A stretch of DNA of 64,000 nucleotides from Chitinophaga sp. SYP-B3965 (lineage in GTDB: Bacteria > Bacteroidota > Bacteroidia > Chitinophagales > Chitinophagaceae): contig NZ_WJFD01000001.1 of the NCBI RefSeq assembly GCF_009647655.1, positions 744,001-808,000 on the forward strand. The letters are read 5' to 3'. Below are positions 29,425 through 50,403 of the stretch, piece by piece. How positions within the stretch are numbered: the first letter of the stretch is position 1; the number at the start of each line of letters is the position of its first letter. A model generated the notes under the pieces. That model searched no databases. It was not told where the DNA came from and saw only the letters and a program-made list of their open reading frames with translations. The position numbers and the translations under genes are program-made.

Positions 29425-29498
29425 CGGGACGTAGCGCAGCCCGGTAGCGCGCTTGCATGGGGTGCAAGAGGCCGCTAGTTCGAATCTAGTCGTCCCGA
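29425..29498 (+). tRNA. tRNA-Pro (anticodon GGG)
   Basis: A complete cloverleaf. Acceptor arms CGGGACG (29425-29431) and CGTCCCG (29491-29497) pair perfectly, with discriminator A. The anticodon stem CTTGC/GCAAG frames the loop ATGGGGT with GGG at positions 34-36. The T-arm is CTAGTTCGAATCTAG. CCA is not fully encoded. It is the intact left copy for two 3' fragments at 41.34 and 42.77 kb, which mark it as an integration target. Confidence 0.96.
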
Positions 29499-29506
29499 CA
29501 AGCTTT

Positions 29507-29540
29507 AAAGGTCATCAGTTTACTGGTGGCCTTTTTTGTT
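29507..29540 (+). terminator. terminator of tRNA-Pro
   Basis: AAAGGTCATCAG and CTGGTGGCCTTT pair around a TTTA loop, followed by a T run. The same hairpin is copied with the tRNA fragment at 42.80 kb. Confidence 0.85.
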
Positions 29541-29647: not shown

Positions 29648-30553
29648 ATGAAAATTTTTATTAGCTGGTCAGGGTTGCTAAGCAAGGAATTAGCAGAAGT
29701 ATTGAAAAATTGGATACCTAAGGTTATTCAGGCAGCGAAACCGTTTTATTCGCCCGATGATATAAGTAAAGGATCAAGATGGAACAATGATATTACAAAG
29801 GAGCTTGAAGACACTAAAGTAGGGTTATTTTGTTTAACGCAAGATAACCTTGAAAGTCCATGGATAATGTTTGAAGCTGGAGCATTGTCTAAAAATGTTG
29901 AGAGTTCAAAAGTTTGCCCAATTCTTTTCAATGTTGAGCCTTCTCAAATTGTAGGCCCGCTGATTCAATTTCAGGCAGCGACCAAGTTTGCCAGGGATGA
30001 GATTTATAAAACAGTTAGCATGCTCAATGACGAGTTGGGAGAGAATAAACTGAAAACTGCAGATTTAAATGAACAATTTGAAATGTGGTGGCCAAGATTA
30101 AAAGAAAATGTGGAAAGGATATTATTTGCTACAAAGCCGACAGTAAAAACAACAAAAAGATCTACAGATGATATTTTGGAAGAGATCTTGCAATTAACAA
30201 GAACAGCCAGCATTAATAGAACTTCCGGTATTAACGAACTGGGTGGTATAAAATCTGAAAACTTATCTCCGGTTAGCCGCCTGGTAGCAGAAGAACTTGC
30301 AAAAGCCTTTGAAGGGCTTTTTGAGGTAAGTATAGAGTTGAACAACGAAGCTTTTTTTAGAAAACTGAAACGATTATTGATCCCGGTCGAGTATATTGTT
30401 AAAAATTCTTTAATGTCTGTTGAAGATAAAGAGGCCCGATTGACAAAACTTTTGCGAAATAGTGATAGGATTAACTTTGAAATAAATAAGCGTGCTATGG
30501 AATTGTTATCTGCTGAACTAATTAGAAAAAAGATAGATGGGGATGTGAATTGA
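29648..30553 (+). CDS. TIR-domain protein, candidate defence effector
   Basis: A 301-residue protein with a bacterial TIR domain at residues 1-155: FISWSG at the first strand, PFYSPDDISKGSRWNNDI in the BB-loop region, VGLFCLTQDN, and SPWIMFEAGALS. Glu76 of the last motif corresponds to the catalytic glutamate of TIR NADases (W-x3-E). Residues 190-301 are helical with no recognised domain and may bind the partner or oligomerise. The gene is AT-rich against its neighbours. It lies 40 bases before the STAND gene, in the same direction, and directly downstream of the tRNA-Pro integration site. It is probably an NAD-cleaving or cyclic-ADP-ribose-like signal-producing effector; function is inferred. 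Confidence 0.88.
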   Translation: MKIFISWSGLLSKELAEVLKNWIPKVIQAAKPFYSPDDISKGSRWNNDITKELEDTKVGLFCLTQDNLESPWIMFEAGALSKNVESSKVCPILFNVEPSQIVGPLIQFQAATKFARDEIYKTVSMLNDELGENKLKTADLNEQFEMWWPRLKENVERILFATKPTVKTTKRSTDDILEEILQLTRTASINRTSGINELGGIKSENLSPVSRLVAEELAKAFEGLFEVSIELNNEAFFRKLKRLLIPVEYIVKNSLMSVEDKEARLTKLLRNSDRINFEINKRAMELLSAELIRKKIDGDVN

Positions 30554-30593
30554 TAGAGTCTGAAATGAATTCTTTCTTGTTAATTTTTGATTC

Positions 30594-33464
30594 ATGAAAG
30601 CCAGGGAAAAGTTATTAAACGACACAGAAGCAGCCATCCTTTTGGGAATTACAAAAGAATTATTATATGCTTATGTGAGAAATACACCCAAAACGAATTT
30701 GGGACATACCAGGAGATTGGTATCCACCGTAATGGCCGGAAAAAATTACTTTTCAGAGAAAGAACTTTTAGAATTTGATGCATATCTGAAAGAACCCTGG
30801 TCGGATTCAAATAAGACGAGGCCTGCAATTCCTAAGTATATTGAAGAGTATTTAAAAACGGAAATAGGAGGTAAATGCCCAATCACGGGAAAGGGATATC
30901 CATTGGACAATGCTCACATTGTAGGATATGCAGAATCATTAAGCCACCATCACCACAATCTGGTACGTGTTGCAAAGGAAGAACATACAAAGGCGGATAA
31001 TGCTGTTATTTCAAGAGAGTTACTTCAGGAAACAAAGGACAGGCTAATAGAAAGATTGCGTCATCAGTTGAGGACAGACTTGGGAGAGACTACGTCTAAA
31101 GCACCACATCCGCACCCGGTGTTTATAGGAAGGGAAGAAAAGTTGGAAGAATTGAACGGAGCGATGGCCTTGAACCGGTTCATTGTGCTGGAAGGGCTGG
31201 GAGGCATTGGTAAAACAGAATTGTTATTGAATGCGCTTAAAAATTCACCTCCCGATCATCCGGTGTTATGGATTGACGTTGAAACTGTAGGAAGTGTCAC
31301 TGACCTGAATATCATATTGATTAATCAGCTAACTCAATTGACAGGGGAACAGGTGGGGAATTCGCTGATTGAAAGCTTACACGGGAAACCTATAATCCTG
31401 GTATTTGATAGTTTGGAAAAATTGTTGATCCATCAGCGGGAGGAAACAGAGGCATTTATTCAAAAACTTCTTGTTCAAACTACGGAGTTAAAGATAATTG
31501 CCACATGTCAAGTGGACTTATCCTTAATAGATTATCCCAAAAAAGTAATTGGAATAGAAGGTTTGAGCAGAGAGAAGAGCCTTCAGTTGTTGGAAACCCT
31601 GATGGCTGACCGGCCTTTACCAATGGGAGAAGAGCAGGCCTGGTTCCTTGAATTTTGTAATGGCCATCCATTATCATTAAAGTTGGTAGTTTCACTGCTT
31701 ACCTTTTACCAGTCTTCTACAGAGGTGGTGGCACAGCTCACAAAAACAAGTTCTCTCAAACGGCCTATGCTGAAAAAGCATGATAAGTCCAATGCGCTGG
31801 ATGTATGCCTGTCTACTGTTTATGATATATTAACCGATGAGCAGAAGAAAGCTTTACAGTATTTGCAATTCTTTTCGGGTGGGTTAAATTTGAAGCTGGC
31901 AGAATTGCATATTGAAGTGGCTGATCTTTCTGCAAATGTTGCCGCGCTTATGCAATTTTTCTTTGTGGAGATAAAAGAAGATAGGGTATTTGTGGTTAAT
32001 CCTGTTCGTCCCTTTTTAAAAAGTAAGATGCAGGAAAAATCCTTGTTTGTACAACTGCAAAAGGCGGCTATTACCGATATTTTACGTATAGGTTGGGTGG
32101 TGAATAATCATTCTGCCAGGAATAAGGATAACCTTTCCTTTGGGTTTAGATGGAACGATGAAGAATTGACCAATCTGTTGGAGGTGTTTCGTATAACACA
32201 GGAAGAGCTTAATATTTCCAAAGAAGGTCAAGGCCCGGAAAAACGTAAAGAATATCTTGGTTTTATCGTAAGCATAAGTGAATTATTAGGAAAATATTTT
32301 TTTTCGCGAGGCTTTTTTAAGTATGGAATATTGTTGAATAAAGCGGGTATCACGGCCAATATTGAGTTAGGTAATCTTGAAGAGGCTGCTGATAATTACC
32401 TTGCAATGGCAGCCTTTCAATCCAGGCAGTTTGATAGCGAAGCGCATGAGGAAACAGTAAAAGAGTTAAATGAACTCGCACAAACGACCGGTAATTTTGT
32501 TATCCAGATAAGGGCAACCCAGGCTCAGTCGGCCCTTGAGCTTGATAAAGAGAACTATGAAGCTGCCCTTGACTTGTATAAAAAAACACTGCATCTTTTA
32601 GAGGAAGGGGTGAACAATAATATGCTTAGCAATAAGTTTACCAGTATAGCCGATTACTATAAGGATACAATGAAAGGTGAAATTGCTGTGGTCTATTGGC
32701 GCATGGATGAGACTCAGAAAGCTATTACACAGTTTGAAGAGATACTTCCGGCTATAGAAGGATATTTTTCAGAAGACAATAGGTTAGCTTACCTGAATTC
32801 ATATGCTAATTGCCTTTGTGAGGCAGGCCGTGAGCAGGAAGGCTTCCCTTATCTTTTTAGAACGATAGAGGGATTTAAGCGCATTGGACAAATGGAATAC
32901 ATCGGTAATTCTATTTGGAAACTAGGGGCGCATGTTGATAAATATCCTGAACTGGCCACCCATCCGTCTTTGGATAAAGAGGCTTTTGAATTGGCACTGG
33001 AGGGGCTTATGTATCCGATTTTAGAATACTTTGAGCGATTGTCCGCCACATATAGTAAACAGTGGGCTGTCAACAACCTACCCGGAATTTTGTCAACAAA
33101 ACTATTTTATATCATGAGGGTTATTTGTCTGACTCCACACGAGCGGATCTTATCAGAATGGGTACGCAACCTGATTAAGGGGCTACCCAGAATGTCTGAA
33201 ATAAACGCATTTTCTGTGACGTTGAATCTTTGCAAAATTCTGGGAGGGGTGCAGGACTGGAAGGATTCTCCCGAACATGTACCCAAGATAATCCTGTCGA
33301 TCCTGGGAAGCTGCTTTTTATTAAATGGAGAGAAAGGATTGGAAAGTTCTAGCAGAGTTTTTCAGTGGCTGGCTTTTTGGATGAGACATGTTAACCTTGA
33401 TCCGTCAGCTACGGCGGAGGAATTGTGGGATAAGGCTAAGTTCTTGCATCCAGTGGAAAAATAG
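30594..33464 (+). CDS. HTH/HNH-like/STAND NTPase/TPR protein, candidate defence sensor
   Basis: A 956-residue protein. Residues 8-68 resemble an excisionase-like helix-turn-helix (LLNDTEAAILLGITKELLYAYV). Residues 92-136 hold an HNH-like motif with His108 in NAHIVG, HN at 121-122 and His131, but with only one Cys, so no zinc knuckle. Residues 170-480 are an NB-ARC/STAND NTPase: Walker A GLGGIGKT (201-208), Walker B ILVFDSLE (268-275) and a GHPLSLKL motif. The remainder is helical and TPR-like (alternating A/Y/L positions near 580-800). The architecture is that of prokaryotic NLR-like immune proteins. Pairing with the TIR gene suggests sensor plus effector. Confidence 0.85.
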   Translation: MKAREKLLNDTEAAILLGITKELLYAYVRNTPKTNLGHTRRLVSTVMAGKNYFSEKELLEFDAYLKEPWSDSNKTRPAIPKYIEEYLKTEIGGKCPITGKGYPLDNAHIVGYAESLSHHHHNLVRVAKEEHTKADNAVISRELLQETKDRLIERLRHQLRTDLGETTSKAPHPHPVFIGREEKLEELNGAMALNRFIVLEGLGGIGKTELLLNALKNSPPDHPVLWIDVETVGSVTDLNIILINQLTQLTGEQVGNSLIESLHGKPIILVFDSLEKLLIHQREETEAFIQKLLVQTTELKIIATCQVDLSLIDYPKKVIGIEGLSREKSLQLLETLMADRPLPMGEEQAWFLEFCNGHPLSLKLVVSLLTFYQSSTEVVAQLTKTSSLKRPMLKKHDKSNALDVCLSTVYDILTDEQKKALQYLQFFSGGLNLKLAELHIEVADLSANVAALMQFFFVEIKEDRVFVVNPVRPFLKSKMQEKSLFVQLQKAAITDILRIGWVVNNHSARNKDNLSFGFRWNDEELTNLLEVFRITQEELNISKEGQGPEKRKEYLGFIVSISELLGKYFFSRGFFKYGILLNKAGITANIELGNLEEAADNYLAMAAFQSRQFDSEAHEETVKELNELAQTTGNFVIQIRATQAQSALELDKENYEAALDLYKKTLHLLEEGVNNNMLSNKFTSIADYYKDTMKGEIAVVYWRMDETQKAITQFEEILPAIEGYFSEDNRLAYLNSYANCLCEAGREQEGFPYLFRTIEGFKRIGQMEYIGNSIWKLGAHVDKYPELATHPSLDKEAFELALEGLMYPILEYFERLSATYSKQWAVNNLPGILSTKLFYIMRVICLTPHERILSEWVRNLIKGLPRMSEINAFSVTLNLCKILGGVQDWKDSPEHVPKIILSILGSCFLLNGEKGLESSSRVFQWLAFWMRHVNLDPSATAEELWDKAKFLHPVEK

Positions 33465-33501: not shown

Positions 33502-34631
33502 ATGATAAAAAACACCATTTTAACCACATTACTCACCTCAACGCTACTAACAGCACTAGCGCAAAGCAATGTAACGATCGAAGCCCGGATCAAAGACCTG
33601 CCTGCCGGTCAGACCATCTATTTAACATCACTCGCCGCTCCGACGAAGGACTCTGCTGTTACTACATCCGGAGGCTTTACGATCAGCACCCATGTAAAAC
33701 CCGGTGACGCGAATGGTTACATACTGCAGATCGGCAGGACCTACAACAATGACAATGGAATGTTCGTATATCTCGATGAAGGAAAGGTACTCATCGATGG
33801 CAATGGCCCCGGATTTAAAGACGCCAAAGCAACCGGCACTACCGCACAGAATGATTTCAACAGCTTCTTTGCAGAGATGGAGAAAGCACCGCAGCTAAAC
33901 GCCGCAAAGAGTTGTATGAGAAATCGGGTAAACTGTCCAAAAGAGACTCCGTTGCTTACCGGACCCTGCAGCCCGAACTGCAGCAAATGCGGGAAGCAGA
34001 GTTGGTATACAAGATCAATTGGGTGAAGGACCATCCGTCTTCCCCCATCAGCGCCTACCTGATCACGAACCTGGGTCGTGATATAAAGCCTGCGGAAAAG
34101 GAAGCGTTATACAATTCTCTGGACGGATCCGCCCGGAACAACGGACCGGCGAAGGAACTGGCGAAGGAATTCCGCGCAGCCAAAGCCGCCGTAATAGGAA
34201 AAGCTGCTCCGCTCTTTACACAGAACGATACGATCGGCAAAGCCGTAAACCTCGCCGATTTCAAAGGGAAATATGTACTGGTGGATTTCTGGGCAAGCTG
34301 GTGTGTACCCTGCCGCGCTGAGAATCCGAATGTGGTGAAAGCATTCAAACAATATCAATCCAGGAACTTCACCGTGCTCGGCGTTGCTTTCGAGCAGCCG
34401 GACGATAAGGACAAATGGATGAAAGCCATTCACGACGATAAACTAACCTGGACGCATGTATCCGATCTCAGTTTTTGGGATAATGCTGCAGGCCAGTTGT
34501 ACGGCATCCGCTCAATCCCTACCAACGTGCTCATAGGGCCGGATGGCATCATCGTAGACAAGAACCTCCGCGGAGAAAAACTGTTCATGAAGCTGAAGGA
34601 ATTGTTAGGCCCTGCCTCCGCCGAAGAGTAA
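33502..34631 (+). pseudogene. frameshifted TlpA-family thioredoxin-like protein
   Basis: Codons from ATG 33502 read as a signal peptide and DUF4369 domain. At about 33896-33898 one base is missing relative to the intact paralogue at 49273 (CAGCTAAACG against CAGCTACAACG), and reading moves to the frame that continues to 34631. Restoring one base gives exactly 376 residues, the length of the paralogue. The downstream frame keeps the thioredoxin CxxC (WCVPC) and the rest of the domain without stops, so the damage is a single recent event. A second product could start at ATG 33912 (239 residues, no signal peptide). A sequencing error is the alternative. Confidence 0.85.
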
Positions 34632-34642
34632 TTGCCAACCCA

Positions 34643-35242
34643 TCAATATCCCGACAGTAAAAAACTATAATCTTTATCCATAACCATTTGAAGATATTCA
34701 TCAAAGCTGCCCGCAATTACTTTGAAGCTATCGGGATCATGAAGGTAGCGGACAACCTGACCTCGCGTGCCTCCGGGCAGAGGATTGAAATCAAGATAAA
34801 GCATGGAAGTCCCACCATTATTCACACAATAAGAGAAACATAACCAACGGTCCATATCTACATCCGGATCAATACCTGGTTCTACTAATCCAGGCATGCT
34901 TTCAAAATGCTCTCCATACGTTTCGCGAATGCTCTTATTGAAATCACTTCCTTCCAGTATCTGTTCAACAGACCTCAAATAATAGGGGTATTCAGTAAGA
35001 TCAACTTCAGCACCAAATATCAGTACGAAGATATCCTGATCTCCATAATGCTGCCCATAGGTTCCATTTATCTGCATTAAGAGTTGTAATAAGGAATCCG
35101 GGCATTCCGGATATTGATCTTTCAACCTGGCTATTTGACTATCCATAGCCCCATAGGCATATGACAAGGCTTTTTTGTCATCTTCGGACAAATGTGTCTG
35201 TAAGCCATTTAAATACTGTTGTATGATATTCTTATTTTCCAT
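34643..35242 (-). CDS. SMI1/KNR4 (SUKH) family protein
   Basis: A 199-residue soluble protein. Features of the SUKH fold are visible: PDSLLQLLMQINGTYGQHYGD near residues 47-67, then GGTSMLYLDFNPLPGGTRGQVV, HDPDSFKVIAGSFDEYL at the C-terminus. SUKH proteins include immunity proteins of polymorphic toxin and contact-dependent systems as well as general binding proteins. No toxin gene is next to it, so it may be an orphan immunity protein carried by the island. It is encoded opposite to its neighbours. Confidence 0.78.
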   Translation of the reverse strand: MENKNIIQQYLNGLQTHLSEDDKKALSYAYGAMDSQIARLKDQYPECPDSLLQLLMQINGTYGQHYGDQDIFVLIFGAEVDLTEYPYYLRSVEQILEGSDFNKSIRETYGEHFESMPGLVEPGIDPDVDMDRWLCFSYCVNNGGTSMLYLDFNPLPGGTRGQVVRYLHDPDSFKVIAGSFDEYLQMVMDKDYSFLLSGY

Positions 35243-41339: not shown

Positions 41340-41427
41340 TTTGGGGCCGCAACAGGCCAATAGTTCGAATCTGGTCGTCCCGGCAAGCTTTAAGGTCATC
41401 TGAGAAATCGGGTGGCCTTTTTTGTTT
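41340..41427 (+). repeat. degraded 3' half of tRNA-Pro with terminator (att-like)
   Basis: Starting in the anticodon loop (TTGGGG), the sequence follows tRNA-Pro: GCAA-x-AGGCC, TAGTTCGAATCT-x-GTCGTCCCG-x-CAAGCTTTAA, then the hairpin and GGTGGCCTTTTTTGTTTT. The 5' half is absent, so it cannot be a functional tRNA. It shares with the copy at 42.77 kb one fewer A after CAAGCTTTAA than the intact locus. This is the signature left by an integrative element that used the 3' part of the tRNA as attachment site. Confidence 0.82.
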
Positions 41428-41505
41428 TAGCGTGTCTTAATTTTCCCGTTTACCTCCTCACACTACCACCCCCTTCACTTAAATTTGCGGGCACGCCTTT
41501 TTTTA

Positions 41506-42769: not shown

Positions 42770-42834
42770 GGTTCGAATTTAATCGTCCAAACAAGCTTTA
42801 AGGTCATCAGTTTACTGGTGGCCTTTTTTGTTTT
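42770..42834 (+). repeat. degraded 3' quarter of tRNA-Pro with terminator (att-like)
   Basis: GGTTCGAATTTAATCGTCCAA followed by ACAAGCTTTAAGG aligns with the T-arm and acceptor end of tRNA-Pro, and the following hairpin (GGTCATCAG-TTTA-CTGGTGGCC) with its T run is identical to that of the intact locus. This is the right-most copy, about 13.3 kb from the tRNA, and marks the probable outer right boundary of the island, 22 bases before the TetR gene end. Confidence 0.8.
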
Positions 42835-49272: not shown

Positions 49273-50403
49273 ATGATTAAAAACACCATATTAACCACAC
49301 TGCTCGTCTTCACGGTGCTCCCGGCACTGGGGCAAAACAATGTGACGATCGAAGGCCGGATCAAAGACCTGCCTGCCGGTCAGACTGTCTATTTAACATC
49401 TTTCTCCGCTTCAACGAAGGACTCTGCAGTTACTACATCCGGACGCTTTACCATCAGCACCCATGTAAAGCAAGGTGATGCGAATGTTTACATACTGCAG
49501 ATTGGCAGGGCTTACAATAGAGATAATGGGACGGCCGTATATCTCGATGAAGGAAAGGTACGCATCAATGGTAATGGCCCTGGATTCAGGGACGCCAAAG
49601 CGACCGGCACTACCGCACTGAAGGATTACAACAGCTTCTATGCGGAGATGGAGAAAGTACCACAGCTACAACGCCGCAAAGAGTTGCATGAGAAATCGGG
49701 TAAACTATCCACAAAAGATTCCGTTGCTTACCGGGCCCTGCAGCTTGAACTGCGGCGAATGTGGGAAGCAGAGTTGGCATTCACGATCAATTGGGTGAAA
49801 GACCATCCGTCTTCCCCCATCAGTGCCTACCAGATTAGGACGCTGGGTAGTGACATAAAACTTGCAGAAAAGGAAGCGTTATACAATTCTCTGGACGGAT
49901 CCGCCCGGAACAATATGCCGGCGAAGGAACTGGCGAAGGAATTCCGCTCAGCCAAAGCCGCCGTGATAGGAAAAGCTGCCCCGATCTTTACACAGAACGA
50001 TACACTCGGCAAAGCGGTGAGCCTCGCCGATTTCAAAGGGAAATATGTGCTGGTGGACTTCTGGGCAAGCTGGTGCGTACCCTGCCGCGCTGAAAATCCG
50101 CATGTAGTGAAAGCTTTCAAGCAATATCAATCCAAAAACTTCACTGTGCTGGGTGTTGCTTTCGAGCGGCCGGAAGATAAGGACAAATGGATGAAAGCCA
50201 TTCACGACGATAAACTCACCTGGACGCATGTATCCGATCTCAGTTATGGGGATAATGCTGCAGGCGAGTTGTATGGTATCCGCTCAATCCCTGCTAATGT
50301 GCTCATAGGGCCGGATGGTGTCATCTTAGACAAGAACCTCCGCGGGGAAAAGCTGTTCATGAAACTGAAAGAACTGTTAGGCCCTGTCTCCATAGAAGAG
50401 TAA
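49273..50403 (+). CDS. TlpA-family thioredoxin-like protein with DUF4369
   Basis: A 376-residue exported protein. Signal peptide 1-20 (cleavage before QNNVTIEG), DUF4369 domain (about 22-125), a linker helix rich in Lys/Glu, and an AhpC/TSA-Redoxin domain with the active-site WCVPC (Cys268, Cys271) in LVDFWASWCVPC. It would act in the periplasm as a thiol-disulfide reductase. It is the intact twin of the frameshifted gene at 33.5 kb (same length, same codons over most of the gene), so the two arose by duplication. It is followed by the sialidase-like gene. Confidence 0.9.
   Translation: MIKNTILTTLLVFTVLPALGQNNVTIEGRIKDLPAGQTVYLTSFSASTKDSAVTTSGRFTISTHVKQGDANVYILQIGRAYNRDNGTAVYLDEGKVRINGNGPGFRDAKATGTTALKDYNSFYAEMEKVPQLQRRKELHEKSGKLSTKDSVAYRALQLELRRMWEAELAFTINWVKDHPSSPISAYQIRTLGSDIKLAEKEALYNSLDGSARNNMPAKELAKEFRSAKAAVIGKAAPIFTQNDTLGKAVSLADFKGKYVLVDFWASWCVPCRAENPHVVKAFKQYQSKNFTVLGVAFERPEDKDKWMKAIHDDKLTWTHVSDLSYGDNAAGELYGIRSIPANVLIGPDGVILDKNLRGEKLFMKLKELLGPVSIEE

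Follow-up and report, generated by a model that had tools for sequence, protein, structure and literature searches.

A STAND-HNH protein family linked to phosphorothioation loci, with a member beside a TIR gene in a Chitinophaga genome without detectable phosphorothioation genes

The stretch of DNA analysed here, 64,000 nucleotides of the genome of Chitinophaga sp. SYP-B3965 (contig NZ_WJFD01000001.1, positions 744,001 to 808,000 of the forward strand; hereafter, the window), carries, behind a tRNA-Pro gene, two co-directional genes, one for a protein with a TIR domain and one for a protein that combines a winged helix-turn-helix (wHTH), an HNH domain, a STAND NTPase and TPR-like repeats (Table 1). 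What is new about this locus is the link of the STAND protein to phosphorothioation (PT), together with the absence of detectable PT genes from its own genome, and not a conserved TIR-STAND system. The two frames are separated by 40 bp and encode separate polypeptides, not the single chain of a TIR-STAND (TIR-NLR) protein. Neither a terminator-like nor a plus-strand promoter-like site was found between them in a consensus scan, of a kind that performs at chance level and provides no proof of an operon; the TIR gene is probably co-transcribed with the STAND gene. The G+C content is 0.36 in the TIR gene and 0.41 in the STAND gene versus 0.47 and 0.45 in the flanks, that is, the pair is AT-rich. 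A previous, sequence-only reading of the window had described two genes of this domain anatomy, AT-rich relative to their flanks and adjoining a tRNA site, and in all these respects it holds up: the genes and their anatomy are real and largely as described, and the tRNA gene, a probable insertion hotspot, is found by ARAGORN.

The STAND protein has the makings of both a sensor and a nuclease. Its STAND-TPR part gave fold matches to STAND proteins, Avs3 and Apaf-1, and a TPR_12 match (1e-6, slightly below the cut-off) covers residues 694-749. In the N-terminal part, the His-Asn-His residues lie on a beta-beta-alpha fold of the HNH_2 type, with HNH fold and family matches, and this triad as well as the Walker residues Lys207, Asp272 and Glu275 are invariant in all eight aligned proteins of the family described below. 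Sequence searches of the PDB returned weak or chance matches only. On the strength of these conserved residues and folds, the protein is most likely a sensor-like nuclease with an HNH effector of its own.

A scan of genome contigs from 84,980 species yielded 44 stretches, of which seven were confirmed as loci with full-length relatives, a lower bound because just two short peptide patterns were used. The relatives are 23-44% identical to the window protein, which aligns with them over its whole length and shares their domain order (the protein of locus L033, as aligned, is a frame starting at a non-start codon). Their hosts are diverse: Flagellimonas, Dysgonomonas, Plebeiobacterium, Duganella, Sphingomonas, and metagenome-assembled genomes of Cyclobacteriaceae and Chlorobiaceae. 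Closer to home, a set of 98 related genomes, 59 from the genus itself, contained 9 with matches, which are confined to the NTPase part but in one case extend to some of the TPR region. Profile searches of 395 genomes of the class and 284 of the family, the own genome included, each recovered the window protein and one other match, respectively a partial protein with one stop inside (L038; E 5.8e-9) and an HTH-HNH protein without a STAND domain. Five weak N-terminal matches (L017-L021; E 0.0015-0.009) were taken as chance; no protein of this kind appears in the lists of open reading frames (ORFs) for the regions surrounding L017 and L020. One further hit, on a Streptomyces plasmid (H33/L023), has no gene assigned to it. 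No relatives were recovered from viral contigs with the STAND protein and its alignments, and no phage record matched its N-terminal part. Judged by these searches, the family is rare. In a tree of the eight proteins, the window protein groups with four Ssp-linked ones (100/100); its position among them is not fixed (80/87), and long branches were flagged.

The company that these genes keep is remarkably uniform. PT genes are present at all seven loci, within flanks of about 7 kb (14.5 kb in all); one locus, L032 (the same place as L016 and L024), helped to build the query, which leaves six that are independent of the seed. SspD was found in L027 (6.8e-61), SspD, SspC and DndB in L028, and SspD with SspC in each of L029, L030 and L031, whereas the other two loci are of the Dnd kind, with DndC, DndD, DndE and a gene resembling a cysteine desulfurase by eye in L032, and DndA, DndB, DndC, DndD and DndE in L033. 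Ten loci of other STAND proteins, which together take in every non-own match from the 98 related genomes and are about 12-20 kb in length, served as controls; they had no PT genes at E 1e-8. Given that SspD occurs in only 13 of 277 genomes of the phylum (E 1e-40), PT linkage at every STAND locus is far beyond chance, though defence genes cluster generally.

Within these loci, the STAND gene lies 8-156 bp behind a co-directional gene in six cases out of seven; L033 is the exception, its STAND gene and dndB being divergent. Three of the six have PT restriction-type genes at one or more of the three positions upstream: DndH immediately upstream and DndG before it in L029, a PbeC-like gene and PbeA behind a 164-residue gene product in L030, and SspH behind a GHKL-ATPase gene and a 673-residue gene product in L031; Pbe and SspFGH we take to be restriction modules. 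Directly upstream of the STAND gene in L027 (4524-6989) and L028 (4442-6964) are genes for proteins of 821 and 840 residues, 58% identical and with a weak HATPase_c_3 match, possibly another PT-linked component. The upstream gene of L032 encodes a 367-residue protein without a Pfam match. As an observation in its own right, L030 (705-14477) is a mixed PT locus, in which a single STAND-HNH gene is surrounded by genes resembling SspA, SspC, SspD, PbeA and PbeC, along with an MzaB-like ATPase and a weak match to GIY-YIG.

The HTH-HNH module also occurs in a second architecture, with DnaJ-type zinc repeats, on a Methylobacterium plasmid (L022, 4965-6524) and in the family to which the window belongs (L090, 8669-10189; repeats read by eye). 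Because of this different architecture, we set both proteins aside as family members. No PT genes lie near either within 10-20 kb, which implies that it is the STAND form, and not the HTH-HNH module in itself, to which PT is linked.

The window departs from the pattern of the seven loci. Its genome, of 7.14 Mb, contains no match to SspD or DndC at E 0.001. The PAPS-reductase family is represented by three matches, a neighbouring pair of 233 and 304 residues, taken to be the assimilatory CysH and CysD, together with what appears to be a GMP synthase. The STAND gene of the window is thus a detached representative of a PT-linked type, residing in a genome without detectable PT.

Several known systems share features with this protein. 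One parallel is with the PT-sensing NTPase and HNH nickases DndI and SspE, which likewise join an NTPase and an HNH domain in one chain and whose genes, as those of the relatives, stand beside PT modification genes (PMC11662687, with SspE as described there and in abstracts). In the window protein, however, the NTPase is an NB-ARC-type STAND with TPR repeats, not DUF262, the HNH domain is N-terminal and of the HNH_2 type, not a C-terminal DUF1524 (neither DUF262 nor DUF1524 gave a Pfam match at E <= 1), and PT genes were not detected in its genome. It differs also from the proteins of Dnd loci that combine wHTH, SAD(SRA) and HNH, and from PT-dependent enzymes of the ScoMcrA type, in having no SAD(SRA) match, a STAND-TPR part instead, and a wHTH that resembles the MerR/excisionase types. 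With the AVAST proteins Avs3 and Avs4, it shares the plan of an N-terminal nuclease, a STAND NTPase and C-terminal helical repeats, but it is 956 residues long and has HNH where the Avs proteins have other nucleases; against the curated models, it scored 20.7 bits with the NCBIfam Avs4 model (cut-off 1500) and had no PADLOC match at E <= 1. No description of an HNH-STAND-TPR protein of PT loci was found in the literature searched, which included few subscription journals and the accessible portions of PMC10853773, PMC12839542, PMC13251355, PMC7159879, PMC12988326 and PMC11662687; the PT-linked sensor-nuclease family is apparently, and provisionally, new to the literature.

The TIR protein has a history of its own. 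It matches TIR_2 (2.1e-7) and, over residues 1-188, the solitary TIRs of the PADLOC family TIR-TM (7.8e-74). Its Glu76, in the motif WIMFEAG, is kept in all eight TIRs aligned, so that the catalytic-type glutamate singled out by the sequence-only reading proves conserved; its role is presumably catalytic, and the protein is likely a nicotinamide adenine dinucleotide (NAD)-destroying enzyme. Unlike what the name TIR-TM leads one to infer, no transmembrane-like stretch is apparent in any of the eight: the highest 19-residue hydropathy mean is 1.0 in the window protein and up to 1.15 in the seven relatives, the usual threshold being 1.6. The last third of the protein is outside the TIR-TM match and differs among the relatives, and the gene, unlike the TIR-TM type, lies beside a STAND gene. 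One weak match was found in 78 other genomes of the genus, and relatives (E 1e-10) were found in 6 of 394 other genomes of the phylum sample and in 11 plasmid records; viral contigs yielded none. In the eight neighbourhoods examined out of these 17, the relatives are mostly solitary, one of them between holin and antitermination genes in a prophage-like stretch. An Acidithiobacillus plasmid (pGT2, L034, 14 kb) departs from this habit: besides the relative, two more of its genes carry a TIR annotation, and the three are accompanied by a cytosine methyltransferase and an HNH gene. The TIR of the window is of a usually solitary type.

At none of the seven STAND loci was a relative of the window TIR found within the 14.5 kb, and at none of the eight TIR loci a STAND gene of the window type or a PT gene (E 1e-8). 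Whole-genome searches for this TIR in five of the seven genomes behind the STAND loci found it in one, that of the Chlorobiaceae, on contig C19, with the STAND gene on contig C52. The conserved TIR and STAND system proposed by the sequence-only reading therefore finds no conserved linkage in this sample (0/7 and 0/8), which is one of the outcomes that the reading had itself named as refuting it; of its interpretation, the component parts are supported, as is the view that the STAND gene serves in defence, with the difference that the steady company of the latter is PT genes (7/7).

The site itself looks like a variable insertion hotspot. Both pyrC and the tRNA-Pro gene are kept in all five congeners compared (of 40 matching), with different genes behind them; in four of the five, the 16.6-17.8 kb behind the tRNA hold no counterpart of any ORF of the window (E 1e-8), and in the fifth, there are two short weak ones. 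Partial copies of the tRNA 3' end downstream of the pair suggest repeated insertion of elements at the tRNA; no integrase was seen by eye in the ORF lists of the stretch with these copies. Directly behind the STAND gene lies a thioredoxin/TlpA-like gene (named by eye; 33502-34631), split over two overlapping frames, to which an intact frame at 49273-50403 is similar. Of the products of ten neighbouring genes, just one matched a PADLOC model, that of PDC-M40A, a candidate defence family (4.5e-11); it is a 199-residue protein whose gene (34643-35242) lies 1.2 kb beyond the STAND gene and is read from the other strand.

Table 1. Features of the TIR-STAND locus and the adjoining tRNA-Pro site (window coordinates)
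Feature	Position	Strand	Details
tRNA-Pro (ggg), probable insertion hotspot	29425..29499	+	ARAGORN
Terminator-like hairpin behind tRNA-Pro	29507..29534	+	consensus scan; partly copied at about 41390 and 42790
TIR gene	29648..30553	+	open frame, 301 aa; TIR domain at about residues 1-163
Codon of TIR Glu76	29873..29875	+	in WIMFEAG; kept in 8/8 aligned TIRs
STAND gene (wHTH-HNH-STAND-TPR protein)	30594..33464	+	open frame, 956 aa
Winged HTH, MerR/excisionase type	30609..30800	+	residues 6-69
HNH domain	30822..31079	+	residues 77-162; His108, Asn122, His131
NB-ARC-type STAND NTPase	31119..31823	+	residues 176-410; Lys207, Asp272, Glu275; NB-ARC 1e-5
Helical TPR-like repeat region, presumed sensor	32037..33389	+	residues 482-932; TPR_12, helical model
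Partial tRNA-Pro 3' end copy with terminator, att-like	41349..41428	+	84% match; 3 mismatches in 25 vs 0 expected
Second partial tRNA-Pro 3' end copy with terminator	42771..42834	+	92% match

The explanation that we favour, with a probability of about 0.5, is that the STAND protein is a phage sensor that carries its own HNH effector and serves, independently of PT marks, as a back-up or abortive arm, to which, in the window, the TIR protein adds a second effector. The TPR region would sense a phage product or a state of the DNA, the STAND domain would bind a nucleotide and oligomerise, and the HNH domains, thus gathered, would cut DNA, with no PT marks required. Because the gene is present here without PT genes, such marks are probably not needed, and a protein with no need for them would function in this genome without PT; having conserved nuclease residues of its own, it need not depend on the TIR either. 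Most likely, the TIR would contribute destruction of NAD, occupying the place that other genes take in the relatives. There is precedent for an effector of this composition: DndI, in which an NTPase and HNH are joined, has been established as one in a PT system (PMC11662687). A survey of PT systems, moreover, suggests that nucleases bordering Dnd systems act as suicidal back-ups (PMC10853773), a role that would fit the place of the STAND gene behind other genes of PT loci. A more far-reaching scenario, which we put forward tentatively and consider less probable, is that an NLR-like sensor nuclease, evolved to back up PT restriction operons, left its PT system and took on a TIR NADase instead of restriction genes, to become a free-standing, two-effector immunity that cuts DNA and destroys NAD.

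Several observations weigh against the favoured explanation. The evidence for the HNH fold is middling, and by itself the window protein gives no match to a Pfam model of HNH. The N-terminal part of the STAND protein is unmatched in all 13 genomes with SspD, which, by their identifiers, all lie within the sample searched; hence, most Ssp systems lack the STAND gene, which is accessory to them. In part, the PT linkage might stem from the tendency of defence genes to cluster, against which the control loci speak, and PT modification in the Chitinophaga genome by enzymes not yet known is possible. The TIR-STAND pair is known from one instance, with neither partner keeping the other elsewhere, and in the literature searched, we found no experimental test of any family member.

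A serious rival, somewhat less probable than the favoured explanation, is that the two genes are chance neighbours that reached the same tRNA-Pro hotspot separately and act independently. The mutual absence of the partners from each other's loci, the mostly solitary habit of the TIR relatives, the unlike G+C content of the two genes and the variability of the site all speak for it; the shared direction, the short gap without a terminator-like site, and the resemblance of this gap to the upstream spacing in the six co-directional relatives speak against it. For joint action of the two genes, the sequence offers one instance with good operon geometry and no second example. Distinctly less probable is the model of the sequence-only reading, in which the STAND protein, on detecting a phage product, would activate the separately encoded TIR in trans, HNH not being the main effector. 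Triggering in trans is possible, from the adjacency and direction of the genes in one genome, and the TIR retains its catalytic-type glutamate; moreover, TIR and STAND modules are often coupled, according to PMC7159879. The STAND protein, however, has a conserved HNH triad of its own, and at the loci of its relatives, there is no TIR relative nearby. Slightly less probable still is that the STAND protein cannot act without PT marks or PT proteins and is a functionless orphan in a genome without PT, as the contrast between its relatives and its own genome might suggest; an intact frame with the HNH and Walker residues kept is hardly what such a remnant would present. That the protein regulates transcription, as an HTH-STAND-TPR protein, instead of acting as a nuclease is very improbable in view of the invariant HNH triad, the presence of a wHTH notwithstanding, and the annotation as regulators or kinases of several of the 20 plasmid tblastn matches listed (of 53) concerns matches that begin at about residue 144 and do not reach the HTH-HNH part.

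Taken together, these observations join two branches of immunity that are mostly handled apart, NLR-like STAND sensors and PT-based restriction, and supply eight defined proteins with which experiments can be done. If the STAND-HNH proteins are indeed back-up effectors of PT systems, the latter would possess a sensing arm that is independent of the PT mark, and it would become testable whether STAND sensors guard restriction systems that are inhibited by phages. The Chitinophaga locus would then be a natural example of such a sensing arm operating without PT.

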